From assembly GCA_013286315.1 (NCBI GenBank), contig JABDFX010000013.1, forward strand, positions 1 through 45,493: a stretch of 45,493 nucleotides of DNA. Reading direction: 5' to 3'. A program made the translations under genes and the position numbers. This stretch comes from Bacteroidota bacterium (GTDB taxonomy: Bacteria > Bacteroidota > Bacteroidia > Chitinophagales > Chitinophagaceae). Under the pieces are notes generated by a model. That model did not search any database and was not told the origin of the DNA. It saw only the letters and a list, made by a program, of their open reading frames with translations. How positions within the stretch are numbered: the first letter of the stretch is position 1; the number at the start of each line of letters is the position of its first letter. Of the stretch, positions 7,584 to 29,245 are shown in pieces.

Positions 7584-7740
7584 AAACGGCAAAAAGCGAA
7601 AGCAAATTACCGGCTTCCATGCACAACCAAAAGCTTACGGCATAACACAGTTCCTCCGCGCTGGCAAGCATTTATTCCGTTTCCTTTTGGTGTCTGATCG
7701 ACTCACTGCCGGTTTTTTCATGCTTTCTTTTTTCCCGTTT
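7584..7740 (+). promoter_or_regulatory. structured leader hairpin, copy 1 (upstream of second ssb)
   Basis: A long imperfect hairpin. Pairs seen, outside in: AAACGG 7584-7589 with CCGTTT 7735-7740; GAAAGCA 7598-7604 with TGCTTTC 7721-7727; ACCGGC 7609-7614 with GCCGGT 7708-7713; ACCAAAAG 7626-7633 with CTTTTGGT 7684-7691; ACGG 7637-7640 with CCGT 7677-7680; ATAA 7642-7645 with TTAT 7672-7675. The same architecture with different bases recurs at 10088-10195. The start codon of ssb is 42 bases downstream. It may be a single-stranded-DNA promoter, a replication-priming site or an RNA leader; see findings. Confidence 0.6.
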
Positions 7741-7781
7741 TTTCTTTTAAAATCATTTATTCATTTATTAAATCAAAAGTT

Positions 7782-8150
7782 ATGGAAATTCTAGTAGGTC
7801 GACTAACAGCAGATGCGAAAACCGAAACTATTTCGGACGAAAAAAAGGTAGTGCACTTTACAATTGCAATCAACGAAAATTACAAATCGAAGTCAGGGAA
7901 AAGGCCTGTCAAATTTGTTGACTGTTCTTTTTGGAAAAACACCGGTATTCAGCCTTTTCTAAAAAAGGGCCATGTCGTTGAGCTATATGGAAGCATCACA
8001 GCCAGGGCATGGGTTGATCAGCAAGGTGAGGCTCATGCTGCTCTAAACTGTAGTGTGAACAACATCATATTGCATGGCGGTGTAAAAAAGGAAACGTTGT
8101 CGGAGGAAAACCATGTCCCAAATCAAGCAGCCGACGACCTGCCATTTTAA
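7782..8150 (+). CDS. ssb: single-stranded DNA-binding protein with DDLPF tail
   Basis: A 122-residue SSB. The OB fold reads MEILVGRLTADAKTETISD, VHFTIAINENYKSKSGKRPV, FVDCSFWKNTGIQPFLKKG and VVELYGSITARAWVDQQGEA. The C-terminus ends in DDLPF, the acidic tip that binds SSB partner proteins. It is a second, divergent SSB within 3 kb of the first. Its leader contains the structured hairpin at 7584-7740 and the sequence TTAAATCAAAAGTTATGG at the start. It precedes parB by 30 bases. This is the usual position of an ssb in conjugative leading regions. Confidence 0.92.
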   Translation: MEILVGRLTADAKTETISDEKKVVHFTIAINENYKSKSGKRPVKFVDCSFWKNTGIQPFLKKGHVVELYGSITARAWVDQQGEAHAALNCSVNNIILHGGVKKETLSEENHVPNQAADDLPF

Positions 8151-8180
8151 TTCATTTACTTTTTATTTTAAACTCGTTAT

Positions 8181-9998
8181 ATGCAGACAACAAAAAAAAT
8201 ACTTTATAAAGGAGCAAAAAATCCAAAACAAGCAAACCAGTCAGGAACAAATTCCAAAGAATCTCCTTCTTTGAAAACGGGGGAATTTAAAAATATACCT
8301 ATCGACGATTTGGATACCAGTCCATTAAATTACCGCATATCTTTTCCGAAAAAGGAATTGGATGAATTAGCTGCCGACATAGCGCAACACGGGATTATCT
8401 CTAATTTGGTTGTTCGGCGTTTCGATTCTGGGAGATATGAAGTTGTGGCGGGAGAGAGGCGATATCGTGCGGCCAAGATAGCCGGTTTGAAAGAAGTGCC
8501 TGTAAACATCGTATCGCTGAGTGATCAGGAAGTTGTTGAAATTCAATTATCCGAAAACCTGCAAAGGTCGGACACCCATCCGATGGAAGAAGCGTTTGCA
8601 ATTGAGCGACTTCGAAAAGTGTATTCCACCCTCGACGAGATATCTTTCCGGATGGGTAAGTCTAGGGCATTTGTACATAGTCGCCTGAAATTGCTTTCCC
8701 TGATTGAATCCATGCGATCCGTTTTCATGGCCGATAAGTGTACGATGCAACAGGCCATTGATATTGCATCACTTTCAGCAGTGTCCCAAAATGATTTTTA
8801 TGAGGAATATTGCTCAAACTGGCAGATAGATGCGGATTTTGAAATGCCTGACACGACCCGCGCTTTGAATCAATTTCGTTACGATTTAACAGAGGCACCT
8901 TTCGATATTAAGGACAAAAAGCTGGTGCCGGAAATGGGGGCTTGCACTTCCTGTTCGTTCAACAGCGCTACGCTCAAAACCCTTTTCCCCGACCAATCAA
9001 ATGACGCGGTTTGTTCCAATAAAGAATGTTATAAAAATAAATGCAATATCAGCTTTGGTGCGAAAATCCTGCGGATTTTCAAGGAGGACGAGCCTGATGC
9101 CTTGCTGTTTTATGGATCTCCGGACAGGTTTGGAGATCTGATCCACCTAATGCCGGAAGCGGCCACCTTACCACAATATAACTATTACAAAGTAGATACG
9201 CTGAACAAACCAGGTGTGCCTGCAAGAGAAGACTATATGGATGAAGATGAAGTATCTGGGGATGATGAGGAATCTTTTAAAGAAGCCTTGGAGGAATATG
9301 AAAATGATTTACAAGAGTATGAACAGGAAATGAACTCCGGGAAATACCGGAGAGGCTTGCTCATTGCAGAGGATAAATTTTCAGTCGTACTGTTTAATCC
9401 GGAAGAAAGGCCATCTGTGTCAGGCCGAATAGAATTGCCGAAGGCTGCACAAGTGCAATCAGCGATCAAATCCGGAACCGCCACGGTTGAACTATTGCAG
9501 GGGGAGATTGATCGGATCCAAGCAAGGGAAGAAAGGTCACTAGAGCTCGACCGGGAAAAAGTGCAATCGCTGGTACAACAAAATTTTTTGGAAAGGTTAA
9601 GCGGTTTGACCAGTAAGCCGTCTCCAGCTGATTGTGTGGCTGTCCGGCTTATATTATTTCAATCGCTGGACTATTCGGCGCGAAATACGGTTTTGCAGAC
9701 GCTATTTATGGAGAACGAGACGTTTGACTACCATGACACTAGGGAGCTATATAAACAGCTGGAAAATCTATCGGAAGGTCAATTTGCATATTTGATCCGG
9801 ATGGCCGTGGTGTCAAAACCGGATAGCAAAAATCCAAAAAGCGAAACCGGTTACTTCCTCTATCAGATGGCAGCACAGGCTGGTTTGGAATTGGAAGATA
9901 TCGAAAACGGACAGAAGCAGAAATCAGACAAAAGGCAACTGAATCAGCTTGAGAAAATATCCAGATTAAAAATTCAAATCGATAAGATTAAATCCTGA
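8181..9998 (+). CDS. parB: ParB/RepB/Spo0J-family protein
   Basis: A 605-residue ParB-like protein. After a basic disordered N-terminus, the ParB N-terminal domain covers about residues 35-130 (IPIDDLDTSPLNYRISFPKK; VVAGERRYRAAKIAGLKEVP, the GERRYRA CTP/DNA-binding signature; QLSENLQRSDTHPMEEA). A helix-turn-helix follows (IASLSAVSQNDFYEEY region). A Cys cluster CTSCSFNSA...CSNKECYKNKC around residues 255-290 probably binds zinc. The C-terminus is long, acidic and helical. No ParA partner is adjacent. Stand-alone ParB-like proteins are common in leading regions of mobile elements, so a role in establishment rather than classic partition is possible. Confidence 0.9.
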   Translation: MQTTKKILYKGAKNPKQANQSGTNSKESPSLKTGEFKNIPIDDLDTSPLNYRISFPKKELDELAADIAQHGIISNLVVRRFDSGRYEVVAGERRYRAAKIAGLKEVPVNIVSLSDQEVVEIQLSENLQRSDTHPMEEAFAIERLRKVYSTLDEISFRMGKSRAFVHSRLKLLSLIESMRSVFMADKCTMQQAIDIASLSAVSQNDFYEEYCSNWQIDADFEMPDTTRALNQFRYDLTEAPFDIKDKKLVPEMGACTSCSFNSATLKTLFPDQSNDAVCSNKECYKNKCNISFGAKILRIFKEDEPDALLFYGSPDRFGDLIHLMPEAATLPQYNYYKVDTLNKPGVPAREDYMDEDEVSGDDEESFKEALEEYENDLQEYEQEMNSGKYRRGLLIAEDKFSVVLFNPEERPSVSGRIELPKAAQVQSAIKSGTATVELLQGEIDRIQAREERSLELDREKVQSLVQQNFLERLSGLTSKPSPADCVAVRLILFQSLDYSARNTVLQTLFMENETFDYHDTRELYKQLENLSEGQFAYLIRMAVVSKPDSKNPKSETGYFLYQMAAQAGLELEDIENGQKQKSDKRQLNQLEKISRLKIQIDKIKS

Positions 9999-10011
9999 TT
10001 CAAGGTTCGGA

Positions 10012-10047
10012 AAGCTGCCACCCTACGGGCGGCAGCTTGTATTTTTT
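10012..10047 (+). terminator. rho-independent terminator after parB
   Basis: A perfect 8-bp stem AAGCTGCC (10012-10019) / GGCAGCTT (10031-10038) with a GC-rich loop, followed by a T-rich run. It closes the ssb-parB unit, so the radC-like gene downstream needs its own promoter, in the region that holds the second structured hairpin. Confidence 0.75.
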
Positions 10048-10087
10048 GGGTATTACAAAAGTGTTTTACTGAATTTCTTTACAAAGT

Positions 10088-10195
10088 TCGGCTTTGCCGC
10101 TTCGGGCGTCCAAACCGGCGGCATAAACTCAGGCCCATCCCACAGAGCTATCCTTTATACGCCTTCCTGTTTGGACTTACTCGCGACAAAGCCGG
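10088..10195 (+). promoter_or_regulatory. structured leader hairpin, copy 2 (upstream of radC-like gene)
   Basis: Nested pairs: CGGCTTTGCCGC 10089-10100 with GCGACAAAGCCG 10183-10194 (11 of 12 paired); GTCCAAAC 10108-10115 with GTTTGGAC 10169-10176; GGCG 10117-10120 with CGCC 10160-10163; TAAA 10124-10127 with TTTA 10154-10157. Order and spacing of inner stems match copy 1, and the inner left arm carries CGGCATAA in both. The stems differ in sequence but keep pairing. The radC-like start lies 44 bases downstream. No ORF explains the segment. Confidence 0.62.
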
Positions 10196-10238
10196 CTAAT
10201 GTTCCATAATTCATTTAAAACATTTTAAATCAAAGATT

Positions 10239-10709
10239 ATGGAAGGAAAAAATCAAACTTCAGATTGGACAAAAGTTTCAGAAGTAGAACTTATTTACAA
10301 ATCAAAAGTGAAGGCTTCAGAAAGGCCAAGAATTAGTGACTCCCGAGGAGCATATGCATTACTCATTTTTCATTGGGACCTGGACAAAATTGAATTGGTA
10401 GAGGAATTCAAGGTAATATTCCTTAACCAGGCCAATAGGGTGCTGGGTATATTCAATGTTTCTTCAGGTGGAATTACAGGAACTGTGGCTGATCCCAGGT
10501 TAATATTTTCAGCAGCCCTAAAAGCCTGCGCCTGTAATATCATGCTGGCTCACTCACATCCAAGCGGAAATCTCAAACCGAGCCGCGCAGACGAAGAATT
10601 AACTAACAAATTCAAAAACGCCGGTCAATTTCTCGATATAAGAGTGTTAGATCACCTGATCGTAACGAAAGATCAATATTTTTCCTTTGCAGATGAAGGG
10701 CTGATCTAA
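10239..10709 (+). CDS. RadC-family JAB/MPN domain protein
   Basis: A 156-residue RadC-like protein consisting of the JAB1/MPN metalloprotease-fold domain. The metal motif HSHPSG starts at His105 and continues NLKPSRADEELT, giving the H-x-H...D signature; VFLNQANRVLGIFNVSSGG-like strands and HLIVTKDQYFSFADEGLI complete the family pattern. RadC-type JAB proteins of this short form are very common on bacterial mobile elements, with no settled function. The leader ends TTAAATCAAAGATTATGG, nearly the same as that of the second ssb. It is the last gene before the candidate oriT. Confidence 0.92.
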   Translation: MEGKNQTSDWTKVSEVELIYKSKVKASERPRISDSRGAYALLIFHWDLDKIELVEEFKVIFLNQANRVLGIFNVSSGGITGTVADPRLIFSAALKACACNIMLAHSHPSGNLKPSRADEELTNKFKNAGQFLDIRVLDHLIVTKDQYFSFADEGLI

Positions 10710-10887
10710 GCCCTTTTTATATTTAATAGATAAATTATCCCTGTCTTACTGGCTCAAGGAAACTCAAACTTGAAGATAGCATAGCTAAAATTTAGTCCTC
10801 CTACAATCCGTCTATTTCTTACATCTATTTTTGATCCTCTAAAATTGCAGTCTTTGATAAAATTGGCCGGATTTTAAAACCGGGTTA

Positions 10888-10972
10888 CGTTGCCAAAATT
10901 GCAACGGGCGAGATGTTCAATTGTTGCACAATTGGATCTCGCCGCCCATTTGTCTCCGGAGTCGACGGGCGG
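10888..10972. other. candidate origin of transfer (oriT)
   Basis: The 317 bases between the radC-like gene and mobC hold no gene but a dense set of inverted repeats: CGTTGC/GCAACG (10888-10893 / 10901-10906); GGCGAGAT/ATCTCGCC (10907-10914 / 10936-10943) with CAATTGT/ACAATTG (10918-10924 / 10928-10934) nested inside; and CCGCCC/GGGCGG (10942-10947 / 10967-10972). This cluster immediately upstream of mobC and the relaxase is where oriT usually lies. The nic site cannot be placed from sequence alone. Confidence 0.55.
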
Positions 10973-11026
10973 TTTTGGTGAGCTGCGAAATGTGAATTGG
11001 ATATGTAAACCGATAAATGAATTGTG

Positions 11027-11407
11027 ATGAGTGAGAATCGAGAATGGATTAGTTTTCGTGTCAAGCCTGCTGAATATCTTCTGATTGAGCAGTACAGCAA
11101 AACGACTACTTGTAGAAGTTTAAGTGAATATGCCAGAAAGGTCCTATTGTCAAAACCAGTTGTGGTAAAATACCGGAACCAATCGGCTGATCAGTTTTTA
11201 GCTGAAATGCTGCTTTTCAAAAATGAATTGAGTGCCATCGGCAACAATTTTAACCAGGCGGTAAAGCGCCTGCATTCCTTAGACGGACTTCCGCAAATGA
11301 GATCCTGGCTTATGATTTATGACTCCACTCATAAATCATTTATGAACAAAGTGGGTGCAATCAATGAACATTTAGTCCAGATTTATGAATTATGGTCACA
11401 AAAATAA
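11027..11407 (+). CDS. mobC: MobC-family relaxosome accessory protein
   Basis: A 126-residue ribbon-helix-helix mobilization protein. The N-terminus WISFRVKPAEYLLIEQYSK followed by SLSEYARKVLLSKPV is the RHH DNA-binding part. The C-terminal half carries the MobC hallmark ELSAIGNNFNQAVKRLHSL. It would bind oriT and help the relaxase nick. ATG at 11027 is chosen over GTG 11024 directly before it. Its last 16 bases overlap the start of the relaxase gene, so the two are translationally coupled. Confidence 0.88.
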   Translation: MSENREWISFRVKPAEYLLIEQYSKTTTCRSLSEYARKVLLSKPVVVKYRNQSADQFLAEMLLFKNELSAIGNNFNQAVKRLHSLDGLPQMRSWLMIYDSTHKSFMNKVGAINEHLVQIYELWSQK

Positions 11408-12663
11408 CCAGTCCACACAGCATTAAACGTGCCCTGAATTACAATGAGAAAAAGGTTCAGAGTGGCCAGGCTACATGTATTTATGCTGGTAATTTTATAA
11501 AAGACCTGGATAAAATGAATTTTTATAACAAACTACAAAGGTTTCAGGCCCTGATTTCTTTGAATGAAAGGGCACAAAAAAGTAATACCCTACATATTTC
11601 ATTGAATTTCCACCCATCTGAGAAACTAAATCAGAAGACCCTATGTGCCATTTCTAATGAATATATGGCGATGATTGGTTTTGGAGAACAACCTTACCTG
11701 GTTTATGAACATCAGGATGCCGGACATCCGCATGTCCATATTGTTACGACAAGCATTAAGGCTTCCGGAGAAAGGATTGACACCTATAATATCGGAAAGC
11801 TAAAGTCAGAAATTGCCAGAAAAGAAATTGAAAAGAAATTCGGGCTTGTCAGAGCAATTGAAGGAATTCGCCTGGAGAAGGGAAAAATTGACATCCGAAA
11901 AGTTGAGTATGGAAAATCTGAGTCCAAAAGGGCGATTACTAATGTGCTTGAAAACGTACTGAAGCGCTACAATTTTACCTCCCTCGCTTCATTAAATGCA
12001 ATATTAAAGACGTTTAATGTTGGAGCAGATGCTGGAAAGGAAGGTGGTAGAATTCGCAGAAACAAAGGGCTATTATACCATATCCTCGATGAAAAAGGCA
12101 GACGAGTCGGAATTCCCATTAAGGCAAGCTCTATATATAGTAAACCAACTCTTGTTTTTCTCGAGCAACTCTTTAAAAAAAACGAATTGAACAGGTCTTC
12201 GACCGGTGATGAATTAAGAATCACAATTGATCGGGAGTTGAAGGCCAGCCCATCAAACCTGGAAGACCTCATTAAGAAATTGAAGCAACAAAACATTGAT
12301 ACTATTTTAAGGCAGAATAACGATGGACTGATATATGGAATCACTTTCGTTGATCATCGAAATAGATGTGTTTTTAACGGAAGCCAGCTCGGAAAAGAAT
12401 ATAGCATAGCTGCCTTACAGAAACGAATCAATTATGTAAAAGTCATTCAGCCAACAAATATGGCTGAATCAGTTAAATCAAATCAGCAGTATAGTCATTT
12501 TACAAAAAAACCAAGATCTCAGAAAAATTATACTCATTTACTTTCAAATAAAGGTTCGGCAAGCGTAATAAAGGATCTATTACAACCGGAAATTGATGAT
12601 TCAAGATTATTATATGCACTGATGGCTAGGCGACGAAAAAGGAAACGAAAATCACATTTATAA
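11392..12663 (+). CDS. relaxase / mobilization nuclease (MobB/VirD2-like)
   Basis: A 423-residue relaxase. The N-terminal ~150 residues are the relaxase domain: SIKRALNYNEKKV holds the likely nucleophilic tyrosine, SNTLHISLNFHPSEKL is the second motif, and YEHQDAGHPHVHIVTTS is the metal-binding histidine triad (His112, His114, His116). It would cleave one oriT strand and stay covalently attached to it. The C-terminal part is charged and ends with a basic run (RRRKRKRKSHL). It overlaps mobC at its start and is 15 bases before the coupling-protein gene. Confidence 0.9.
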   Translation: MVTKITSPHSIKRALNYNEKKVQSGQATCIYAGNFIKDLDKMNFYNKLQRFQALISLNERAQKSNTLHISLNFHPSEKLNQKTLCAISNEYMAMIGFGEQPYLVYEHQDAGHPHVHIVTTSIKASGERIDTYNIGKLKSEIARKEIEKKFGLVRAIEGIRLEKGKIDIRKVEYGKSESKRAITNVLENVLKRYNFTSLASLNAILKTFNVGADAGKEGGRIRRNKGLLYHILDEKGRRVGIPIKASSIYSKPTLVFLEQLFKKNELNRSSTGDELRITIDRELKASPSNLEDLIKKLKQQNIDTILRQNNDGLIYGITFVDHRNRCVFNGSQLGKEYSIAALQKRINYVKVIQPTNMAESVKSNQQYSHFTKKPRSQKNYTHLLSNKGSASVIKDLLQPEIDDSRLLYALMARRRKRKRKSHL

Positions 12664-12678
12664 GGATCAAACTGAGGT

Positions 12679-14490
12679 ATGATGGCGAACGGTACAGGTG
12701 AGAATGAAATAGGGCTTCAGAGAATTACCGGTTTTATGCGAAATGTCAGTGTGATAATATTGCTGTTACACTATTACCACAACTGCTATGGTGCTTTTGT
12801 AATTTGGAATTTGAATTGGAATTTAGTCGATCGAGTTCTTATAAATTTCTCAAAAACAGGATTGTTTGCGCATAATCATGCAAAATTTATTTGCATGGGA
12901 TTACTCATATTGTCTCTGGTTGGTTCGAAGGGTAAAAAAGATGAAAAGTTAAATTGGAAGCCCATCACACTGTATCTGTTCGCCGGAATCGTTTTATATT
13001 TATTTTCAAGCTTTATTACGGAAAGCCTGAACTCAATAGAAGTCCAGGCTATAAGTTATATGCTTGTGACTACCATAGGGTATTTGCTTATATTAAATAG
13101 TGGTGCCAGGCTATCAAGATTGATAACACTTACGCTCGGCATTGATGTTTTTAATGAGATCAATGAGACTTTCCCACATGAAGAGAGATTCATAGAAAAT
13201 GAATATTCAATTAATCTTCCAGGTCGTTATAATCTTAAAGGCAAAGTTCGGAAATGCTGGATAAACATAATTAATCCTTTTCGCGGTTTATTAGTAGTTG
13301 GATCGCCAGGATCGGGCAAATCATATTTTGTTATTCAGCATGTCATCAGGCAGCATATAACCAAGGGGTTCACAATGTTACTCTATGATTTTAAATATCC
13401 GGATTTAACTCAGATTGCGTATAACACCTTGAAGAGAAATGAAAAAGCTTATCGAATAAAACCATCTTTTTATAGAATAATCTTTGACGATCCGGCTATG
13501 AGCGATCGGTGTAACCCCCTGGATCCGGAGTTGATGTATGATATAACGGATGCGATAGAATCAGCAAGGTCCATATTGCTTGGATTAAACAGGGATTGGA
13601 TTACCAAACAGGGAGATTTTTTTGTCGAGTCCCCAATAAATTTTGTCACGGCAATCATTTGGTTCCTGAAAAAGTATGAAAATGGCGTTTTTTGTACGCT
13701 TCCGCATGTGATTGAGTTGATGCAAACGGATTACGAGAAATTATTTCCCGTTTTGAAGACTGAGCCGGAGATAGAAGTTTTGATAAACCCCTTCATTTCA
13801 GCTTATCAAAACGATGCGATGGAGCAGCTTGAGGGGCAGATTGCAAGCGCAAAAATCGGTATGGCACGCCTTTCTTCCACTCAGCTGTATTGGGTTCTGT
13901 CGGGTAACGATTTCAAACTGGACATCAATAATCCTGTAGAACCTAAAATCCTTTGCCTGGCAAATAATCCTCAGAAGCAACAGACTTTTGGGCCAGTTTT
14001 ATCACTTTATGTTACTAGGCTGGTTAAACTTGTCAATCAGAAAGGCAAACTCAAATCCAGTTTGGTTTTTGACGAATTTCCTACCATTTTTTTTAATGGC
14101 ATTGACAATCTGATCGCCACCGCGAGGTCAAATAAAGTTGCTACTTGCCTCGGCATGCAAGATTTTAGCCAATTAAAGAAAGATTATGGTGGAGATCAGG
14201 CATCAGTCATCATGAATATTGTGGGCAATATTATTAGTGGACAAGTTATGGGTGAGACAGCTAAATTGTTATCAGAACGATTTGGAAAAATTTCTCAGCT
14301 TAAAGAAAGCGTTAGTGTAAATCGAAACGATACCTCAATTAGCAAATCTAGCCAAATGGACTTTGCTATTCCGCAGTCTAAAATTTCTTCGCTTTCATCA
14401 GGTGAGTTTGTTGGAATGGTAGCTGATGATCCCGATCAGAAAATAAAATTAAAAGTCTTCCATTGCGAAATTTTACAAGAAAGAGCATAG
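12679..14490 (+). CDS. TraG/VirD4-type coupling protein
   Basis: A 603-residue membrane ATPase that would deliver the relaxase-DNA complex to a transfer channel. The first ~150 residues contain several hydrophobic segments (VSVIILLLHYYHNCYGAFVI; ITLYLFAGIVLYLFSSFI; YMLVTTIGYLLIL). The motor domain has Walker A VGSPGSGKSYF (about residues 208-216) and Walker B SLVFDEFPTIFF (Asp465, Glu466). No mating-pore genes are present, so the element is probably mobilizable rather than self-transmissible. Its last ~45 codons are repeated as a relic at 42931-43069. Confidence 0.9.
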   Translation: MMANGTGENEIGLQRITGFMRNVSVIILLLHYYHNCYGAFVIWNLNWNLVDRVLINFSKTGLFAHNHAKFICMGLLILSLVGSKGKKDEKLNWKPITLYLFAGIVLYLFSSFITESLNSIEVQAISYMLVTTIGYLLILNSGARLSRLITLTLGIDVFNEINETFPHEERFIENEYSINLPGRYNLKGKVRKCWINIINPFRGLLVVGSPGSGKSYFVIQHVIRQHITKGFTMLLYDFKYPDLTQIAYNTLKRNEKAYRIKPSFYRIIFDDPAMSDRCNPLDPELMYDITDAIESARSILLGLNRDWITKQGDFFVESPINFVTAIIWFLKKYENGVFCTLPHVIELMQTDYEKLFPVLKTEPEIEVLINPFISAYQNDAMEQLEGQIASAKIGMARLSSTQLYWVLSGNDFKLDINNPVEPKILCLANNPQKQQTFGPVLSLYVTRLVKLVNQKGKLKSSLVFDEFPTIFFNGIDNLIATARSNKVATCLGMQDFSQLKKDYGGDQASVIMNIVGNIISGQVMGETAKLLSERFGKISQLKESVSVNRNDTSISKSSQMDFAIPQSKISSLSSGEFVGMVADDPDQKIKLKVFHCEILQERA

Positions 14491-14715: not shown

Positions 14716-17049
14716 TCAGAACGGTGACTCGAACAGCCGGTCGATCTCATTTTCCGGCATATCTATCCTGACACTCCTTTTATCCGGAACAGGCGTGATT
14801 CTGTCATCTGCCCCGTAATCCCGGTAATCCGTATTTTCCGCAATAATGTCCTCCACGTCATCCATGAAAAACAGATCATCGTCGAAGGAATCATCATCGA
14901 TATCAAACTTTGAAAATATTTCGCCACGTTGATCCTTTAGTGTATCAATCATGCGCTCATAGTCGCGTTCGGTGTAAATAGTACTTTTTTCATCACGATA
15001 CCAGGCTTCCGTCTGATCCTTAACATATGCATTGAGAAGGTCACTAATGAATTTCCGATTGTCAGATCTTGACATAAATGCATCGAAGTCTACGCGGTAT
15101 TCATCAAAAAGATCTCTTATATATCCAAGTTCATCTGCCTCGGACGTGCCTGATATCAGGACTCTTATGACGGCATCCCAGTTTTCCAGCAGGAACTTAC
15201 CGACCAGGCTTTCATCATTACCACGACGAATGCAATTCATGTAATACTTCCAGTTACCCGAGTTGACTCTGTCCAGTCGGACAGAACGGAGTATGCCGGC
15301 CGTATATTGTTCGATTTTTTGCGTCGAGGTTTTATCAAGATACTTAAATCTGTTTAATAGTGATGCGATTTTTAATCCGGTAATTGATGTGCTGAAACTC
15401 TTTATACGAACTGCCTTTCCCAGTATATGCAACGCGAGTCTGGTTGATTCCTCTTCTATATTCGTAAGACGCGTTCCAATAACTGCGAAGAAATTCGAAG
15501 TCATTTGTTCGAACTGTTCGATATATGTTAAACCCTGAATGAGTTTCCAGCGTTCTTCCGGATTTTCATAGAAATAGCTCGTCAGGAAATCAGATAAGGA
15601 TGGATTAATAAAGGACACCCTGGCTTCGTCGTTCCTGACAATAACTTCACGCCTAAGAATGCCGTCCAGCAGCTTTTTGTGCGCATTTTTGAACGGGCTG
15701 GGACCGGGGCGGAAATGGTAAGATTCCATTTCGAAGTGCAGGAACGAGTCAAATATTTGTTTTGTCTGACCTTCATTTGCATTGTTTTGTTGGGTGAAAA
15801 CAGCGTGCATCAGTAACTTTTCCTCCACTGTTATCTGTTGTTCATAGGCATGACGCCATACTTCCTCCGGATTGTTCAAATGTTTTGTGACGAATGCAAG
15901 ATATTGACCTTTTTTTATGTCAGTTGAATTAACGGGATCCGTCACGAATTCAATTAATCGCGGATTATAATTTTGATGATTAATAATTGCCATGTAGGCT
16001 TTGTCTTTAAATATCTCCTTTTTCTTTTCATCCGGTAATGCTGAATGATAAATATGATTATATAGTATCTTGGCTTTATCCAGGTCGCTATAGTGTCCCA
16101 GCTGAATTTCTCTTCTTGCGATGTCTACGCTGGCCCTTTTCAGTTTTTCAAATCTTTCGATGGCGGTGCGATAGATTATTGTTCTCGTAGTTAGAATCAG
16201 GTATTTATTGGGTGAGTTTTTTATCCGGTCCAAAAAACTGACAAATTTTGATTCCGGGGTTTTGGGATTCATAATTTCCAGGTAATTGGCACCCAGAAAA
16301 TCATCAAAATAAAACACTTGTTTTGTTTTAGGGTTCTTAGCGATAATATCTTCAGCGTCTTTCAAATCGGAGTCGATATAAACCAGCTTGTATTTCTGCG
16401 CCAGCAGATGGTATGTCAGAAAATCTGCCAGCATGGTTTTTCCTACGCCGGGCAGGCCTGTGATTAGTATATACTTATATTTCCTGAGAATGTCAAAGGC
16501 GTCGTCGAAATTCACGCTGTACACGTATCGTTGAATATTTTTCCTGATTTTGCCTTCGTAAAAGTCTGACCGGCCTGTAACAGCGTTATGGAGAATTTTG
16601 GTAAGAACGGGGACGCTGGATAACCATAACTTATACCAGCTGGTTTCAATCTCCGGCAACTTCGACAAATATTTATTCAGATCATCCTGTCCAAATATAT
16701 CGTTGGGTGTTTTGATGAATGGTTTGAATTTTTTGCAGATTTCGTCCTTATTGGTAGCACTTAGTGGTAGCGCTGTGACCAGCATGTACCTGGTAGGTTG
16801 TAATCTTTTTACTTTGGGAAATTCGGATTTAACCAAGTCTCTGACCAGCGCTCTGTATCCTGATTTTATGTATTGTTTGGCCTGAACGACGATTTCATTA
16901 TTATTCTTTGGACTGCTGAAACGCAGATCGATTCCCTTGTCTTTCCCGCTTTTGAAACTTTGCAGGTCGAGCTTGAAACGGGCGTTGAGGATATCCATTG
17001 CAAGCCCTTCAAACTCCTTGTCATTCAGCGCCGAGAAATCATAAGCCAT
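14716..17049 (-). CDS. restriction endonuclease-like STAND NTPase, probable defence protein
   Basis: A 777-residue two-part protein. Residues about 1-110 resemble an Mrr/type IV restriction endonuclease-like fold: NDKEFEGLAMDILNARF, then SGKDKGIDLRFSSP and EIVVQAKQYIKSGYRAL, giving the D...GxD...QxK catalytic arrangement. The middle is a P-loop NTPase of the STAND type with Walker A TGLPGVGKTMLADF (about 198-205) and a Walker B-like QVFYFDDFLGANYLE. The C-terminal ~450 residues are helical without recognised motifs, as expected of a sensor region, with an acidic end. Nuclease-STAND fusions (novel STAND NTPase class, Avs-like architectures) act in anti-phage defence. ATG 17049 is preferred over an extension to 17109. 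It is convergent with the mob operon. Confidence 0.82.
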   Translation of the reverse strand: MAYDFSALNDKEFEGLAMDILNARFKLDLQSFKSGKDKGIDLRFSSPKNNNEIVVQAKQYIKSGYRALVRDLVKSEFPKVKRLQPTRYMLVTALPLSATNKDEICKKFKPFIKTPNDIFGQDDLNKYLSKLPEIETSWYKLWLSSVPVLTKILHNAVTGRSDFYEGKIRKNIQRYVYSVNFDDAFDILRKYKYILITGLPGVGKTMLADFLTYHLLAQKYKLVYIDSDLKDAEDIIAKNPKTKQVFYFDDFLGANYLEIMNPKTPESKFVSFLDRIKNSPNKYLILTTRTIIYRTAIERFEKLKRASVDIARREIQLGHYSDLDKAKILYNHIYHSALPDEKKKEIFKDKAYMAIINHQNYNPRLIEFVTDPVNSTDIKKGQYLAFVTKHLNNPEEVWRHAYEQQITVEEKLLMHAVFTQQNNANEGQTKQIFDSFLHFEMESYHFRPGPSPFKNAHKKLLDGILRREVIVRNDEARVSFINPSLSDFLTSYFYENPEERWKLIQGLTYIEQFEQMTSNFFAVIGTRLTNIEEESTRLALHILGKAVRIKSFSTSITGLKIASLLNRFKYLDKTSTQKIEQYTAGILRSVRLDRVNSGNWKYYMNCIRRGNDESLVGKFLLENWDAVIRVLISGTSEADELGYIRDLFDEYRVDFDAFMSRSDNRKFISDLLNAYVKDQTEAWYRDEKSTIYTERDYERMIDTLKDQRGEIFSKFDIDDDSFDDDLFFMDDVEDIIAENTDYRDYGADDRITPVPDKRSVRIDMPENEIDRLFESPF

Positions 17050-17158
17050 TGCCACTTTATTGTCTTGATCAAAACTATAATAAATATTGCGAAGAATGGA
17101 ACAGGACATAGAGGGTACATTTTCCCGATCAGAAGCATCTGTATATAAATCCTGGCAG

Positions 17159-17561: not shown

Positions 17562-19250
17562 TCAAGAGGTTCGATTTCCCGTTAAGGATTCCATCTTGTT
17601 ATATGCTTCGTGTTTGTTATAGTTCTGGGCAATATGATAAAGAAAATCCAATATAACAGACGCCTCATCGTCATTGACTTCGATATTATTTTTAGCCAAA
17701 ACCTGCATCGCCCGTTTTAACGATATATTTCTAACTCTATAATTAGTGCTGTTAGACAGAATAATATTTACGCTCAAGCTATGAGAAAAGATTTGTTGCT
17801 TATGATGTAGAATTTTGACTAACGCACTACCCATCTGTAGAGAAACATCACCTGTTTGAATATTAACTTCTTCTGGAGGGATCAAACTTACTATTTGTTT
17901 TTTGTCAGACGCATCCATAAACTTATACAAATGGAAAACATCTTTAATAGACTTTCTGGCCTGTGCCAATTGTTGATCGATATGTTTTAGTTTGTCCGCA
18001 ACAGAGCTAAATTCTTTTTTTATTACGCCAGTAATATCTTGATACTCTTTTTTTAATTCCTTGAAATCATCAAACTTCAGTTTATCATCTACAAATAGTT
18101 TTCTGGCTTTTGATATTAAATATCCCTGTTCTTCGAGTTGCCTCACCAAAGTTCTTCGCTCATTCAAGAATTTTGTTTTGTACAATAGTGTATTCGTATC
18201 CTCTAAAACTAAGCTGAACAATTCAGCTCCTCTTTCTGAAAGTACAAGTTGTTCAAGTTTCTTATTGTAACTTTCATTTACAAGGCCTGCCTTAATTCTG
18301 GTTTTACAATTACCTGAGCAATGATAATAAGGATATCGTTTGGCACGTCCCTTTGAATAACTTCCCCGAAGTTTACGAGAACATTTCGGACAAATCAAAT
18401 AGCCTTTCAGAGGAAATGTTTCCTTTAATTCGTCTGTCTTGCCAAAAACTTTTTTTCGAGTACTAACAATATTTTGAACTTCGTAAAACAAGGCCTCTGA
18501 AATGATCGGTTCATGCACTCCTTTTATCAGAACTGTACTATCGGTTTCTGATGAAAGGCTAACAAAACCACAGTAAACAGGACTATGAATAATTCTTAAA
18601 AAATTTGATCGGGAGCACTTTAATCCTTTAGTTAAAGCCATTCTTCTAACCTCTTGAATAGTAAAAGTATTCTTCGAAAGTTGTTGAAAAGACCACTTAA
18701 TAATATCGGCAATAGATGGATTTGGAGCGATATACTTTTTGCCATCTGGCATTGCGAGATTGGAATAACCCAGTGGAGCTTTGTTTGGAAATCTGCCAAG
18801 TTGTTTTGCCCTGCGCATTCCATTTGATGTGTTTAATGCCCGTCGTAAGTTCTCTGATTCCGGTATGGATAAATAAACAGCAAGCATTACTGAGCTTTCG
18901 GGAACATTAAAATCAATAGGCTGGTCAATAGACATTGCTACTGTATTTAGCTTCCTTAATATGCCAATCATTTCATAGGCATATTCTATATTACGACTGA
19001 ACCTATCCCACTTTAGAAATAGTATAATATTGGGTTCTTTAGAGCGGGATTTTCTTATTGTAGCAACAAGTTTTTTCCATTCCGGACGATTAAAATCTTT
19101 AGCTGAGAAATCTTCCCGAAAAATGGCTTTAACCTCAATATTTTCGAATTCACAATACTTTAGTAGTCTGTCTTCTTGTTCCGGAAGAGAATAACCTTTT
19201 CGTTTTTGCTCATCGGTACTAACACGAATGTATAGGTAAGCTGATTTCAT
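17562..19250 (-). CDS. large serine recombinase
   Basis: A 562-residue site-specific recombinase. The N-terminal resolvase domain starts MKSAYLYIRVSTDEQKRKGY with catalytic Ser11, and continues with NIILFLKWDRFSRNIEYAYE. A recombinase domain follows (APLGYSN...SIADIIKWSFQQ). A zinc-ribbon segment has Cys287, Cys290, Cys311 and Cys315 (ICPKC...HCSGNC), then a coiled-coil region (LVRQLEEQGYLISKARKLF). This is the layout of phage/ICE serine integrases. Its 3' side borders boundary copy A, and a decayed homologue with the same flank sits at 37628-38323. It likely integrates and excises the element. Confidence 0.93.
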   Translation of the reverse strand: MKSAYLYIRVSTDEQKRKGYSLPEQEDRLLKYCEFENIEVKAIFREDFSAKDFNRPEWKKLVATIRKSRSKEPNIILFLKWDRFSRNIEYAYEMIGILRKLNTVAMSIDQPIDFNVPESSVMLAVYLSIPESENLRRALNTSNGMRRAKQLGRFPNKAPLGYSNLAMPDGKKYIAPNPSIADIIKWSFQQLSKNTFTIQEVRRMALTKGLKCSRSNFLRIIHSPVYCGFVSLSSETDSTVLIKGVHEPIISEALFYEVQNIVSTRKKVFGKTDELKETFPLKGYLICPKCSRKLRGSYSKGRAKRYPYYHCSGNCKTRIKAGLVNESYNKKLEQLVLSERGAELFSLVLEDTNTLLYKTKFLNERRTLVRQLEEQGYLISKARKLFVDDKLKFDDFKELKKEYQDITGVIKKEFSSVADKLKHIDQQLAQARKSIKDVFHLYKFMDASDKKQIVSLIPPEEVNIQTGDVSLQMGSALVKILHHKQQIFSHSLSVNIILSNSTNYRVRNISLKRAMQVLAKNNIEVNDDEASVILDFLYHIAQNYNKHEAYNKMESLTGNRTS

Positions 19251-19401
19251 ATTAACAAAGGATTTCTGGAGCCGTTTTCACAGATGAATATTTGATGTAA
19301 ACACAAATTCAAACATGTAAAGTTAACCATGGTACAAGCTTTAAGCCTGGCAACAATTCAACAGGCATACATGAGAGGGTATGTTTATTCTGAGAATCAT
19401 C

Positions 19402-21456
19402 TTATCCATTATTTATTTTTAGCAGGCTGGCATTAATCGCCACAACAATCGTACTGATGCTCATCATCGCTGCGCCAGCAGCCGGACTGAGCAGAATTCC
19501 GGAATGATATAGTACACCGGCGGCTAGCGGCAGCGCAATGATATTATATCCGGTCGCCCAGGCAAGATTCTGCATCATTTTCCGGTAAGTCGCTTTCCCG
19601 AACAGAATCAGACTGGCGATATCCTTCGGATTACTGTTAACCAGGATGATTCCTGCGGTTTCAGCTGCGATATCGGAACCTGAACCGACGGCAATACCGA
19701 TATCTGCCTGGGCGAGGGCAGGAGCGTCATTAACCCCATCACCCGTCATGGCCACAAACTCGCCTTTTGTTTGCAGTTCTTTAATTTTTTCCAGCTTCTG
19801 ATGTGGTAAGACTTCGGCAAAATAACTGTCCATCTGCAATTCCTTGCTGACCGATTCAGCCACCAATTTGTTGTCACCTGTAAGTAAAACCGATTTGATG
19901 TGATTTTTGTGCAACAGTTCTATGGCTTCAGCCGATTCCGGCCTGACAGAATCTGAAAGACTGACATAACCCGCCAGGGCATTATTGATTAAAATGAATA
20001 CAGTCGTTTCCTGGATATTTGTTCTTACGCCTAAAGGATTTGCGATATTTTCATTTTTTAGATAACCTGGACTCACCACTTTTACTGATTTTCCCTCAAC
20101 GACAGCTTCTACCCCCTGCCCCGTGATGGCCTTAAAATTTTCAGCGGCAGGAATTGAGACTGAAAGATCTTTTGCTTTTTGCAGAATGCCTGTAGCTATC
20201 GGATGTTCGGAATTTTGCTCCAACGATGCAGCTAACCGGATCAAATCATTCGCTGTGTATTCACTATTCAGAACGACAATATTAGATACGGCAAACATGC
20301 CCATGGTCAATGTGCCGGTCTTATCAAATACCAATGTGGTGATTTTCCTTGCATTTTCAAATGCCGTTCTGTTTTTAATCAAAAATCCGTTTTTTGCCGA
20401 AAGCGCTGTTGATTTGGCTACAACCAATGGAACTGCCAATCCCAATGCATGGGGACAACAGATGACAATGACCGTTACCATTCTTTCAATCGAAAAGGAA
20501 AGACCCTTTCCGGAAAGATACCAGACTAAAAAAGTAGCCACTCCTGTTGTAAGAGCAATCAGCGTTAGCCATTTTGCGGCACTATCCGCCAAAAGTTGTG
20601 TTTTTGATTTCGATTGCTCGGCATCATGCACCAGTTTTATTACTTGAGATAAATAGGAATCTTTTACGCCATGTAATACTGAAACTTTAATCGCGCCATT
20701 ACCATTAATAGAACCGGCGATAACTTTGTCACCATTCTTTTTATCCACCGGTTTGGATTCTCCAGTCAGCAAACTTTCATTCAGGTAACTTTCTCCCTCT
20801 ACAATGACTCCGTCAGCAGCAACTTTTTCTCCCGGTTTGATCAGTACTATGTCATTTTCTTTTAAAGTATCGGTTTTGACATCCATCACCATATCTCCAT
20901 GAATCAGATGCGCATCATCGGGCATTAATTTGACCAGCAATTCCAGTTCCCTTGAAGCGCCGGCAACCGATTTCATTTCAATCCAGTGTCCCAGCAGCAT
21001 GATCAGGATCAGGGTTGCCAGTTCCCAGAAAAAATCCATTCCTTCAAGACCTAAAACCGTCGCCACACTAAATACATAAGCAACTGTAATCGCAAACCCG
21101 ATTAAGGTCATCATTCCGGGATTCCAACTCTTCATTTCATCTTTCCAGCCCTTCAAAAAAGGCCAGCCGCCATAGAAGAAAACAAGTGAAGATAAAAGTA
21201 GGAGAAGATAATTTGATCCGGGAAATTGAATATGAATTTTCAGCCAGTGTTGAATGGTTTCAGACAGCAACATAATCGGTATGGTTAGCACCAAAACGAC
21301 ATAAAAACGTCTCCGGTAATCAGCGATCATCATAACATGATGGTCATGACCATCATCTACCATTGGAGCGCCTTTCTTGCCCATTCCTATAGTCATCCCT
21401 TCATGACCTGTTTTCATTGCCATTGAACTGGAGTGTTCACTATCTGTGTGTTCCAT
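19402..21456 (-). CDS. copB: CopB-type heavy-metal P1B ATPase
   Basis: A 684-residue P-type ATPase with a His/Met-rich N-terminus (HTDSEHSSSM, GHDHHVMM) in place of a CxxC domain. The transmembrane metal motif is CPH (CCPHALGLA, Cys334-Pro-His336), which marks the CopB/P1B-3 class (copper or silver export). The phosphorylation motif DKTGT has Asp378; TGES, SEHPIATG and the hinge MTGDGVNDAPALA are intact. Located in the inner membrane. It is the last gene of the metal cassette, 17 bases after the adaptor gene. Confidence 0.92.
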   Translation of the reverse strand: MEHTDSEHSSSMAMKTGHEGMTIGMGKKGAPMVDDGHDHHVMMIADYRRRFYVVLVLTIPIMLLSETIQHWLKIHIQFPGSNYLLLLLSSLVFFYGGWPFLKGWKDEMKSWNPGMMTLIGFAITVAYVFSVATVLGLEGMDFFWELATLILIMLLGHWIEMKSVAGASRELELLVKLMPDDAHLIHGDMVMDVKTDTLKENDIVLIKPGEKVAADGVIVEGESYLNESLLTGESKPVDKKNGDKVIAGSINGNGAIKVSVLHGVKDSYLSQVIKLVHDAEQSKSKTQLLADSAAKWLTLIALTTGVATFLVWYLSGKGLSFSIERMVTVIVICCPHALGLAVPLVVAKSTALSAKNGFLIKNRTAFENARKITTLVFDKTGTLTMGMFAVSNIVVLNSEYTANDLIRLAASLEQNSEHPIATGILQKAKDLSVSIPAAENFKAITGQGVEAVVEGKSVKVVSPGYLKNENIANPLGVRTNIQETTVFILINNALAGYVSLSDSVRPESAEAIELLHKNHIKSVLLTGDNKLVAESVSKELQMDSYFAEVLPHQKLEKIKELQTKGEFVAMTGDGVNDAPALAQADIGIAVGSGSDIAAETAGIILVNSNPKDIASLILFGKATYRKMMQNLAWATGYNIIALPLAAGVLYHSGILLSPAAGAAMMSISTIVVAINASLLKINNG

Positions 21457-21473
21457 ATGTTGGCGATTTAATA

Positions 21474-22667
21474 TTACATTTTACTCATGTCATGATCAGG
21501 GTTCGTTCCTCTCTTGAAGATATATTCACTATTGATCAGATAGGCACCACCAGTAACAACGATATCACCGGTTTTAAGACCTGAAAGGATTTCAACACGG
21601 TCCCCGTCTTCCTTGCCCGTCTTAATCGAAATGCTTTTGTACATATTGTGACCGGTTTGTACCCATACTATATTATTATGTTCATTTCTGATGATTGCAC
21701 TGGCAGGAAGGGTTAATACAGTCGTCTGATGATTGGTAATGACTACATAGGCATTCATACCCGGCCTTAATTGATCATCCTTATTTTGAACGGCAACCCG
21801 GACAAGATTAATCCGGGTATCTGGGTTTATTTCTGGATTTATGAGTTCTATCTTTCCGGTGATCTCTTTTCCAAGATCGGGTAGTTGAACAACTGCCGTT
21901 CCTTTAGCATCCAGTTCGGATAACTGGGATGTATAAACCTGTGCTTCGGCCCAAAGGGATGAAAGATCCGCCAGCCTGACAATGGTTCCTCCTTCAGCAA
22001 TGTATTCGCCCTCGTGACTTTCAAATGATGTGATGGTTCCGCTGGCAGGACTATAAAATGTGGTCAACGGGGAAGCTTGTTTTGTTTTTCCTAACGCAGA
22101 TATCTGATCAGCACTCAAACCCCAAAGCAGTAACTTATTTTTTGCACTTTCCACCAGCTGCTTAAAATCTATAATGGAATGATCCAGCAGGTTTTCTTTT
22201 TCAAGGGTTAGGATATATTCTTGTTTAGCATTGTTCAAAGTCTCACTATATAAATCATATAGTCTGTCTCCTTTTTTTATGTAGTCGCCGGTATTCTTGA
22301 AATATAGTTTATCCATTCGTCCGGATACCCTGCTGCTAATGGCAATACTTGTCGTTTCATCAATCGTAAGGGTGGCATTCAACACGTGCGTGTTCCCGAT
22401 TTTTCCCTTTCCCAGTGTGTCTACCTGGATATTTCCTAGCTGTACCTGCTGATCGCTGAGCACAATTATATTCTCTAGTTGATTCTGGTTTTTTTCAACG
22501 GCAATCAGCTCCATCCCACAGATGGGACATTTTCCGGGTTTTTCTTCCATGATCTGAGGATGCATGGAGCAGGTATAATAATGATCCCTTCTTGCCACCG
22601 CATCTTTTTTTTTCGTCTTGCAGGCGAAGAGGATCAATACCATCGAGAGGGCTAAAATATATTTCAT
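21474..22667 (-). CDS. cusB: CusB-like RND efflux adaptor with heavy-metal-binding domain
   Basis: A 397-residue periplasmic adaptor with lipoprotein signal (LALSMVLILFAC). Residues about 30-55 form a YHS-like heavy-metal-binding unit, YYTCSMHPQIMEEKPGKCPI then CGMELI. The membrane-fusion body follows (SSRVSGRMDKLYFKNTGDYI; TTFYSPASGTITSFESHEGE). It would link the RND pump to TolC and hand over metal. It begins two bases after the stop of the first adaptor; the two are related but not near-identical. Confidence 0.9.
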   Translation of the reverse strand: MKYILALSMVLILFACKTKKKDAVARRDHYYTCSMHPQIMEEKPGKCPICGMELIAVEKNQNQLENIIVLSDQQVQLGNIQVDTLGKGKIGNTHVLNATLTIDETTSIAISSRVSGRMDKLYFKNTGDYIKKGDRLYDLYSETLNNAKQEYILTLEKENLLDHSIIDFKQLVESAKNKLLLWGLSADQISALGKTKQASPLTTFYSPASGTITSFESHEGEYIAEGGTIVRLADLSSLWAEAQVYTSQLSELDAKGTAVVQLPDLGKEITGKIELINPEINPDTRINLVRVAVQNKDDQLRPGMNAYVVITNHQTTVLTLPASAIIRNEHNNIVWVQTGHNMYKSISIKTGKEDGDRVEILSGLKTGDIVVTGGAYLINSEYIFKRGTNPDHDMSKM

Positions 22668-22669
22668 AG

Positions 22670-23932: not shown

Positions 23933-23938
23933 CTGTAC

Positions 23939-25189: not shown

Positions 25190-25193
25190 CCTA

Positions 25194-27122: not shown

Positions 27123-27133
27123 GGTAAGGAAAT

Positions 27134-28408: not shown

Positions 28409-28427
28409 AAGAAAAGATTAATGAGTC

Positions 28428-28745
28428 TTACATTTTAGTTGACGGAGCCGGTTTCTTTTCGACCAGCTTCATCCCGCATTTCGGACAGTTGCCAGGTTTA
28501 TCGCTAATCACTTCAGGATGCATGGTACAGGTATAAACTTTATCGACTTTCTTTTTTACCAATGTCATACCGCATTTAGGACACTTGCCAGGCTTGTCAG
28601 TCATGACTTCAGGATGCATGGGACAGGTATATATATATTTCCCGGTTGTGTCTGATTTGCTTTTGGACATTTTTGGTTTTGAAGATTGTGCAAAGGAGAA
28701 TGTGGCACCGCTTAACACGAATACAAGAATGATCAATTTTTTCAT
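28428..28745 (-). CDS. secreted protein with two heavy-metal-binding units
   Basis: A 105-residue protein with a signal peptide (LIILVFVLSGATFSFAQ) and two tandem copies of the YHS-like heavy-metal-binding unit: YTCPMHPEVMTDKPGKCPKC then GMTLVKK, and YTCTMHPEVISDKPGNCPKC then GMKLVEKK. Each gives a C-x-M-H-P ... C-x-x-C-G-M set of ligands. Probably a periplasmic copper chaperone or buffer for the neighbouring pump, 19 bases upstream of the cusA gene. Function inferred from composition and context. Confidence 0.88.
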   Translation of the reverse strand: MKKLIILVFVLSGATFSFAQSSKPKMSKSKSDTTGKYIYTCPMHPEVMTDKPGKCPKCGMTLVKKKVDKVYTCTMHPEVISDKPGNCPKCGMKLVEKKPAPSTKM

Positions 28746-28772
28746 TTTTTGTTTTTTATGATGAATATTTAA

Positions 28773-29141
28773 TTACGATTTTCTCTGGTAATGGCAGCAC
28801 TCCGGAAGTTTGATATAAACATCTGCTGCAGCATTCATAGAATCAATATCATGACCCTGGCCGCTGACCAGTCTTTCGATGGTTACAGTGTTTACTTTTG
28901 ATTTGTCATAAGTAACCATTAGTATTTTAGAAGAAACATCCCAGTTGGAAAACCAGATACCGGGAAGAGTTTTGATTGAACTTTCAATCCGGTGTTTACA
29001 CATTTCGCAGGTGCCGTTTACTCTAAAAGATTTGGTAATGGCAAAAGGACCGTCCAGCTTCGGATTGAATTGCTGGGCTCTGGCAAAAGAAGTTAAGCTC
29101 ACTGCAATAGCAATGAAAAGAAACGTTTTTAGCGTTTGCAT
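28773..29141 (-). CDS. periplasmic heavy-metal-associated (HMA) domain protein
   Basis: A 122-residue protein with a signal peptide (FLFIAIAVSLTSFARAQ). The HMA fold has FRVNGTCEMCKHRIESSIKT, placing the metal-binding cysteines at Cys45 and Cys48, then WDVSSKILMVTYDKSKV and a second half-domain. A C-terminal CCHYQ adds thiol ligands. Periplasmic copper binding in the metal cassette is likely. Confidence 0.85.
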   Translation of the reverse strand: MQTLKTFLFIAIAVSLTSFARAQQFNPKLDGPFAITKSFRVNGTCEMCKHRIESSIKTLPGIWFSNWDVSSKILMVTYDKSKVNTVTIERLVSGQGHDIDSMNAAADVYIKLPECCHYQRKS

Positions 29142-29245
29142 AAAAATTAATTTAATAGTAGAAAATAATAGTTGAATGTCTCAGGTGCGGGCAGATATGC
29201 CAGGCACTGACTTAACAGTATGTTAAGCATAACGAAGAAGAAAAA

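Follow-up and report, generated by a model that had tools for sequence, protein, structure and literature searches.

The window analysed here, a stretch of 45,493 nt from a Bacteroidota bacterium of the family Chitinophagaceae (contig JABDFX010000013.1), carries two hairpins of one architecture, the first 5' of a gene for a single-stranded-DNA-binding protein (ssb) and the second 5' of a radC-like gene. As far as sequence can tell, these hairpins are likely to be promoters that work in single-stranded DNA (ssDNA) in the leading region of a transferred element, in the manner of the Frpo promoters of plasmid F, and that serve the Bacteroidota primary sigma factor. We favor this reading because the -7 promoter box is locked to the junction of single- and double-stranded DNA at the hairpin base, the template arm of the hairpin is constant in length, the genes behind the hairpins point to the mobilization (mob) genes, ordinary promoters are fewer in front of them, and the paired bases show no excess of G-U. 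The first-pass annotation of this window had offered a single-strand promoter, a priming site and a structured RNA as options, and the minus-strand -7 box at the junction and the spacing on the template arm lend specific support to the first of them.

Two hairpins with covarying stems

The nested stems that the first-pass annotation had described in front of ssb and radC are present, and both the stems (Table 1) and the sequence CGGCATAA on the inner left arm of each hairpin were verified in the letters. The core pairs as ACGG-C-ATAA with TTAT-T-CCGT in the ssb hairpin and as GGCG-GC-ATAAA with TTTAT-A-CGCC in the radC hairpin. The leader pieces said to be shared, ATTCATTTA and TTAAATCAAA followed by the ATG, can be seen in both window copies; among relatives, radC-type and ssb-type leaders are unlike each other.

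A search for RadC over 248 genomes of the order gave 30 loci, and the core letter pattern was found before radC in 11 of them (L005-L015, where L005 is the window) and not seen in the other 19 (L016-L034). From the 10 aligned relatives (L006-L015), with the window excluded, we built a covariance model, R1. Its alignment contains two-sided changes in 13 of 26 pairs (37 cells) and 94.6% of the paired cells are paired, values that none of 500 shuffles reaches; for the number of further pair types, 3 of the 500 do so. When the partner column was shifted by 1 to 3 columns, the paired fraction dropped to 39-51%. With filters off, the top two matches of R1 in the window are the two hairpins, with E values of 3.8e-10 (radC) and 1.9e-6 (ssb, a partial match to model positions 31-103 of 129), and the next match has an E value of 0.65. 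Since R1 was never trained on the window and ranks these two hairpins first there, we consider them real.

A second model, R2, describes the core and was built from 69 copies, those of the window included. Here two-sided changes occur in 12 of 18 pairs (197 cells), matched by 0 of 500 shuffles, and a C/T mismatch in the apical core is fixed in 68 of the 69 sequences. The first-pass annotation had noted from the two window copies that bases differ while pairing is kept, and this holds for the relatives as strong covariation: in a shuffle-based count used in place of R-scape, the score lies above all 500 shuffles. The apical core (7637-7680 and 10117-10163 in the window) is the most conserved part of the hairpin, yet it lies upstream of the -33 element considered below.

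Distribution and gene context

The window hairpins are members of a widespread family, found beside the mob genes of conjugative elements of Bacteroidota and before genes that are probably the first to reach a new host. R1 matched 42 of 147 genomes of the taxonomic family, in 35 of 100 genera and with up to 8 matches per genome, and R2 matched 34 of 395 genomes of the phylum in 21 of 170 genera, one of these matches (G588, L191) being apparently spurious; it looks like a false positive and was dropped from later counts, which reduced 39 copies to 38. The exact two-arm pattern was found in at least 119 stretches of the genome collection, under titles that include Chryseobacterium, Flavobacterium, Mucilaginibacter, Sphingobacterium, Tenacibaculum, Winogradskyella and Hydrotalea, and also in three viral contigs. 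Among the matches listed, 4 of 80 titles are not clearly Bacteroidota by name (metagenome-assembled genomes or unclassified).

Three sets of copies were used. For the family set, 100 matches were reduced by 14 that were antisense shadows and 3 that were duplicates (L101 is the same stretch as L102); this left 83 copies, of which 81 are distinct. The outside-family set holds 39 copies, from 41 matches less one antisense and one weak match (E value of 0.024). The named set was drawn from the at least 119 stretches and the three viral contigs, which gave 135 copies with enough flank and 64 after redundancy was removed; it has some contigs in common with the other two, so that the sets partly overlap.

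Each copy was assigned the first gene recognised within about 600 nt of the hairpin, with Pfam names taken from representatives. The further copies that the first-pass annotation had expected upstream of ssb, radC and similar genes in related elements were indeed recovered by the covariance-model search, 5' of ssb, radC, ParB, DUF932 and other genes. In the family set (n = 81), the genes are RadC (34), SSB (11), short orphan proteins (11), DUF6943 (6), DUF6876 (4), GIY-YIG (3), DUF932 (2) and an AraC-type gene (1), with 9 unassigned. Outside the family (n = 38) they are RadC (14), ParB (5), DUF932 (5), SSB (4), DUF6943 (1) and DUF1281 (1), with 8 unassigned, and in the named set (n = 64) SSB (23), RadC (5), DUF932 (5), DUF6943 (4), short orphan proteins (4), ParB (3) and GIY-YIG (2), with 18 unassigned. 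A RadC gene is not in itself a sufficient marker of the hairpin, as RadC loci and plasmids lacking it show: R2 gave no match in longer stretches of two of the 19 loci in which the core pattern was not seen (L136, L137), and four named plasmids that encode homologues of RadC (L168-L171; two from Pontibacter, one from Pedobacter and one from B. finegoldii) have no hairpin at E values up to 0.05.

Many hairpins are followed by short proteins of ~73-85 amino acids that start with MQKQLRII or MQKH (for example L103:2317-2544 and L104:10824-11054). A Pfam scan of the one from L103 gave no match, and we regard these orphan proteins as candidate early genes. In another genome (G272), three contigs (L073, L075, L077) end ~205 nt past a hairpin and the starts of their radC genes are very similar, which suggests repeated leading modules in one genome.

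In all 35 copies among the 81 that have mobC in range (some of them share a locus), it lies to the right of the hairpin on the same strand, and the same downstream placement was found for mobA (34 of 34) and for the type IV coupling protein (T4CP) gene (32 of 32); the other copies of the 81 had no mob match inside the fetched stretch. The mobC upstream regions of 27 loci align around inverted repeats, our candidate origin of transfer (oriT). Placement on the mob side and strand orientation would suit equally well a site at which synthesis of the complementary strand is primed, with the hairpin RNA serving only as a primer and having no role as mRNA, and the paper on Frpo cited as reference 55 in PMC9849209 names both promoter and primer roles in its title. 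We think such a priming site quite unlikely, because many elements carry several copies, each before a gene of the shared set and often at a near-fixed distance, which suggests that expression is the selected output.

A promoter box at the fork of the hairpin base

Promoters of Bacteroidota carry TAnnTTTG at -12 to -5 (PMC9723704); for B. fragilis, a TTTG around -33 has been deduced, and the same source states that none was detectable in F. johnsoniae (PMC7366714). On the minus strand, the flank outside the left end of the hairpins contains an exact TAnnTTTG in 27 of the 81 family-set copies, compared to 4.6% of dinucleotide shuffles, and in none of the 81 at the mirror position or on the plus strand of the same flank. 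Outside the family, 12 of 39 copies have the exact box, compared to 3.9% of shuffles, and none of the 39 has it at the mirror position. In the named set the box is exact in 19 of 64 copies, compared to 4.6% of shuffles, with none of the 64 having it at the mirror position and one having it on the plus strand.

To place the box in the fold, the minus strand was folded with DNA parameters without using the motif, and pairing was averaged over the copies with at least 5 of the 6 informative positions of the box. In the family set (70 of 81 copies), the mean pairing is 0.76-0.88 from -22 to -13, 0.69 at -12, 0.29 at -11, 0.28-0.45 from -10 to -6 and 0.69 at -5, and the drop from -12 to -11 is seen again outside the family (0.66 to 0.27; 29 of 39 copies) and in the named set (0.57 to 0.28; 53 of 64). 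When all sites with 5 of 6 positions were used, the mean step in the family set was 0.29, compared to 0.02 in the mirror. Stem ends were also defined free of the motif by a search for contiguous stems, in which the range allowed for the right arm was narrower than that for the left, so arm lengths from this search were left unused. With these ends, 33 of 80 copies in the family have a box of at least 5 of 6 positions that coincides with the outermost pair, and the next offset accounts for 9.

The radC hairpin of the window follows this pattern closely: -12 is the outermost paired base (pairing probability P of 1.0; pair 10089/10194) and -11 is unpaired (P of 0.06). For the ssb hairpin the box was placed by eye (Table 1), and the automatic scan picked GTAATTTG instead, one base further in and with 4 of 6 positions.

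The presumed template arm keeps a near-constant length

Arm lengths were measured from the core to -12 in copies whose -13 base is reliably paired with the opposite arm (P at -13 of at least 0.5) and right-arm pairs at 21-44 nt. In 56 of the 81 family-set copies, the right arm, which would be the template, measures 29.1 nt (standard deviation [SD], 1.16), whereas the left arm measures 39.6 nt (SD, 8.7; Levene p of 2e-8). A redundancy-reduced set of 59 copies gave 29.4 nt (SD, 1.5) for the template arm and 38.3 nt (SD, 8.5) for the other, and in the named set the template arm is 28-31 nt in 18 of 19 copies and 45 nt in one. In the family logo, a T-T-(T)-G run stands in the middle stem on the template arm ~19 nt before -12, a position suitable for a -33 element. 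The radC copy of the window fits this promoter geometry well.

In duplex DNA, the minus-strand box would drive leftward transcription, so one could also imagine an ordinary leftward promoter for which the hairpin would be an upstream binding site. This is very improbable: the distance from box to core varies in the duplex, where the left arm spans 28-63 nt, and the TTTG of the middle stem would have no constant place at -33; the genes held in common are on the right; and such a promoter has no need of covariation. Readings of the hairpin as a parS site, an integron-like folded site or a transposon end would leave its position in front of a common set of genes unaccounted for.

Ordinary promoters and the RNA-leader alternative

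If the genes relied on ordinary promoters further upstream, the hairpin could work in the ssb and radC mRNAs as a cis-acting leader, riboswitch-like or autoregulatory. Its position in gene leaders is in keeping with this, as is covariation of the strength and kind seen in RNA families, and RNA folding is more stable than that of dinucleotide shuffles (z of -3.2 for the ssb and -4.3 for the radC hairpin), folding of the plus strand as DNA being less clear (z of -1.7 and -3.4). Candidate RNAs in Rfam include a 'radC' motif of Proteobacteria and STAXI (PMC2864571). Rightward TAnnTTTG boxes within 300 nt upstream, however, are scarcer for hairpin genes (8 of 112) than for other genes of the same loci (97 of 438; Fisher p of 1.4e-4), as are such boxes with a TTG at 18-22 nt (1 of 112 compared to 24 of 438; p of 0.04). 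These counts cover 112 of 119 copies, 7 having no usable reading frame, and the hairpin itself fills part of the interval; the scarcity agrees with genes that rely on a single-strand promoter.

Base pairing is kept in the hairpin family with no excess of G-U over A-C: G-T pairs occupy 17 and A-C pairs 18 cells in one alignment (A5), and a separate count gave 3 and 8. An RNA leader would moreover leave the minus-strand -7 box at the stem base and the constancy of the template arm unaccounted for, and we consider it unlikely. As an indicator of which strand folds, the wobble counts are undecisive, and asymmetry of this kind was set aside.

Points that weigh against a single-strand promoter

Several observations count against reading the hairpins as single-strand promoters, the undecisive wobble counts among them. 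All six box letters are found in only about a third of the copies, many radC copies reading GAACTTTG and many ssb copies TAACTTCG, and boxes with 5 of 6 positions are not enriched in the family set (43 of 81, compared to 51% of shuffles); weaker boxes therefore count through their position only. Outside the family, the mirror control also steps (0.17, compared to 0.34 for the real side) and, when stem ends are defined free of the motif, the box falls on the outermost pair in 6 of 38 copies and lies at +2 in 7 of 38. The contrast between the arms is weaker there as well (15 of 39 copies; template 30.3 nt with an SD of 1.65, other arm 33.5 nt with an SD of 3.1). Among well-determined copies, 2 of 58 in the family and 5 of 20 outside it fall outside the 21-44 nt rule, and both exceptions in the family form their pair on one side of the hairpin. 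In radC copies the -33 element is weak, and the ssb copy of the window is a weak example, with an imperfect box and a 23-nt spacer compared to the family norm of ~19-20 nt. Promoter boxes do not account for the extreme conservation of the apical core. Finally, the copies are kin, so the counts are not independent. The behavior of the range rule outside the family, the lack of enrichment of 5-of-6 boxes and the control value of 22% for the repeat at the start codon, described below, slightly reduce the strength with which we hold that the hairpins are single-strand promoters.

Proposed mechanism

From the observed structure and covariation, the family and its gene context, and the orientation, spacing and place of the box, we infer the transferred strand, the binding of polymerase, the start site and the on/off logic as follows. 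In conjugation the minus strand, presumed to be the one transferred, would enter the recipient first from the candidate oriT near 10.9 kb, and each hairpin would fold on it as it enters. The stems would restore the upstream half of a promoter, with the -33 TTTG in the middle stem at the ~19-20-nt spacing of the template arm, while the -7 box TAnnTTTG would remain unpaired just past the outer stem, the duplex ending at -12 and opening from -11. RNA polymerase could then bind this ready-opened fork and transcribe rightward out of the hairpin, so that ssb, ParB and radC mRNAs would be made before a second strand exists. Once the DNA becomes double-stranded the hairpin would be gone and the promoter off. 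The mechanism makes an exact prediction, of one base (-11) and one start site (Table 1).

An inverted repeat at the radC start codon

An inverted repeat covers the start codon of radC and straddles the predicted +1 (Table 1). Among 61 copies with a start codon 56-84 nt past the core, 34 have 9-nt arms around the ATG that pair at 8 or 9 of 9 positions, compared to 22% when the upstream sequence was shuffled. Of these repeat copies, 26 have a defined stem, and in 24 of them the predicted +1 falls on position five of the left arm, the A that follows TTCC in TTCC-ATAAT. The start codon is paired with a mean of 0.95 in RNA that contains the whole arm and of 0.57 in RNA that begins at the predicted +1, the latter being lower in 32 of 34 copies. 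The repeat is found mainly in related radC copies, and ancestry may explain part of this regularity.

One tentative and rather doubtful extension is that the hairpin mimics a pre-opened bubble, with a duplex to -12, an unpaired -7 box and a second duplex downstream, and that copies of the radC type combine it with a filter on translation. The repeat would hide the start codon in read-through mRNA, and a transcript from the single strand, starting inside the left arm, would be translated more freely. If this is true, the radC-type gene would be expressed mainly in the minutes after entry, under double control.

Features of the window

The genes from ssb to T4CP are all on the plus strand (Table 1). 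Directly past the T4CP gene, at 14716-17109, lies a defence-like nSTAND3 NTPase with an Mrr-type nuclease domain. The region 17562-32452, probably metal-resistance cargo, encodes a serine recombinase together with two E1-E2 ATPases, of which one carries a heavy-metal domain, and has a partial frame of the AcrB family.

Table 1. Hairpins, promoter elements and genes between ssb and T4CP in the window
Feature	Position	Strand	Basis
Extra pairing outside the ssb box, would close a small unpaired bubble	GAAAGC 7598-7603 / GCTTTC 7722-7727	-	sequence and folds
-7-like box TAATTTGC of the ssb copy	7602..7609	-	placed by eye; fits TAnnTTGY (motif SM5 of PMC9723704), not the full TAnnTTTG
Hairpin 5' of ssb, divergent copy	7609..7713	-	partial R1 match; R2 match 7621-7696 (copy in R2 training set); letters
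Stems of the ssb hairpin	outer ACCGGC/GCCGGT 7609-7614/7708-7713; middle ACCAAAAG/CTTTTGGT 7626-7633/7684-7691; core 7637-7645/7670-7680		sequence
Candidate -33 TTTG of the ssb copy, right (template) arm	7686..7689	+	spacer of 23 nt to the 7609/7713 pair
ssb	7782..8150	+	Pfam SSB, E 4.9e-15
ParB-like protein, 605 amino acids	8181..9998	+	Pfam ParB_N, E 5.4e-25
-7 box GAACTTTG of the radC copy	10082..10089	-	5/6 informative positions of TAnnTTTG
Hairpin 5' of radC	10089..10194	-	R1 match 10080-10202, E 3.8e-10; letters
Stems of the radC hairpin	outer CGGCTTTG/CAAAGCCG 10089-10096/10187-10194; middle GTCCAAAC/GTTTGGAC 10108-10115/10169-10176; core 10117-10127/10154-10163		sequence
Candidate -33 TTTG of the radC copy, right (template) arm	10170..10173	+	20 nt before the -12 pair
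Inverted repeat TTCCATAAT (10202-10210) / ATTATGGAA (10236-10244)	10202..10244	+	covers the radC start codon, straddles the predicted +1
Predicted +1 of the radC transcript, give or take a base or two, minus strand as folded template	10206	+	from the -12/-5 box position (PMC9723704)
RadC-like (JAB) gene	10239..10709	+	Pfam RadC, E 1.6e-37
Candidate oriT, conserved inverted repeats 5' of mobC	10880..10980	.	alignment of 27 related mobC upstream regions (24 displayed)
mobC/NikA-like gene	11024-11407	+	Pfam scan
MobA relaxase	11392-12663	+	Pfam scan
T4CP with YWFCY domain	12679-14490	+	Pfam scan

Comparison with known systems

Hairpins that act as promoters on ssDNA are known from phage N4, where they serve the virion RNA polymerase, a phage-encoded single-subunit enzyme, in a system that is not conjugative.

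Structured elements near radC, or near ssb and antirestriction genes, are represented in Rfam by the radC motif (RF01754) and STAXI (RF01728), listed for Proteobacteria and Enterobacteriales; the STAXI authors weigh ssDNA but favor RNA (PMC2864571). At the gathering score, no Rfam family, these two included, matched the window, and neither was found in the loci of relatives (6 searched at E values up to 0.5 and 18 at up to 1, three loci being in both). What Rfam did report in those loci were two tRNAs that reach threshold and sub-threshold matches to L20 leader, Flavo-1, Histone3 and asX2, which do not overlap the hairpins. In pLS20, single-strand promoters were considered and rejected for the EGeRS1 sequences (PMC8708921).

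The functional model comes from plasmid F, with Frpo1 and Frpo2, and from ColIb-P9, with its Frpo-like promoter; in these the fold restores the promoter boxes on the transferred strand (PMC9849209). A survey of leading regions reported 13,089 Frpo homologues in 6,006 elements together with new candidates (PMC11541004, 2024). Those promoters also lie in leading-region hairpins before ssb and anti-defence genes, but they were identified through their resemblance to Frpo and through TTGACA/TATAAT boxes. The string 'Bacteroid' does not occur in the main text of PMC11541004, nor in that of PMC12826799 (2026), which maps Frpo in plasmids, and our searches of the open-licence PMC literature showed no description of the Bacteroidota hairpin family. 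Frpo-type single-strand promoters are known; the Bacteroidota family is, within the reach of these searches, undescribed. In the literature cited here, single-strand promoters have so far been defined by Frpo and sigma-70-type boxes; if our reading is true, transcription from incoming ssDNA arose in, or adapted to, a second sigma system, and the hairpins would serve as markers of the leading region in many elements of Bacteroidota. They would also provide a search handle for early genes, among which DUF6876, DUF6943, DUF932, the short orphan proteins and the RadC-like JAB proteins are candidates for establishment or anti-defence functions.

In the leading region of plasmid F (48000-67000, L329), ssb, a long ParB-like protein, psiB and DUF932 follow in this order, all directed towards traM, a parallel across phyla in the types and direction of early genes. 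The region before F ssb did not show the architecture of the Bacteroidota hairpins when folded. As in F, which has two Frpo hairpins ~5 kb apart before ssb and other early genes (PMC9849209), the Bacteroidota hairpins lie beside mob and the candidate oriT with their genes pointing to mob, and their predicted fold restores the boxes of the host at the proper spacing, more weakly outside the family and in the ssb copy of the window. They differ from Frpo in belonging to another phylum, in carrying TAnnTTTG and TTTG boxes instead of -10 and -35 boxes, with the box at a fork or bubble of the stem base, in having a conserved core, CGGCATAAA/TTTATTCCG, and in occurring with up to 8 matches per genome in front of more types of gene.

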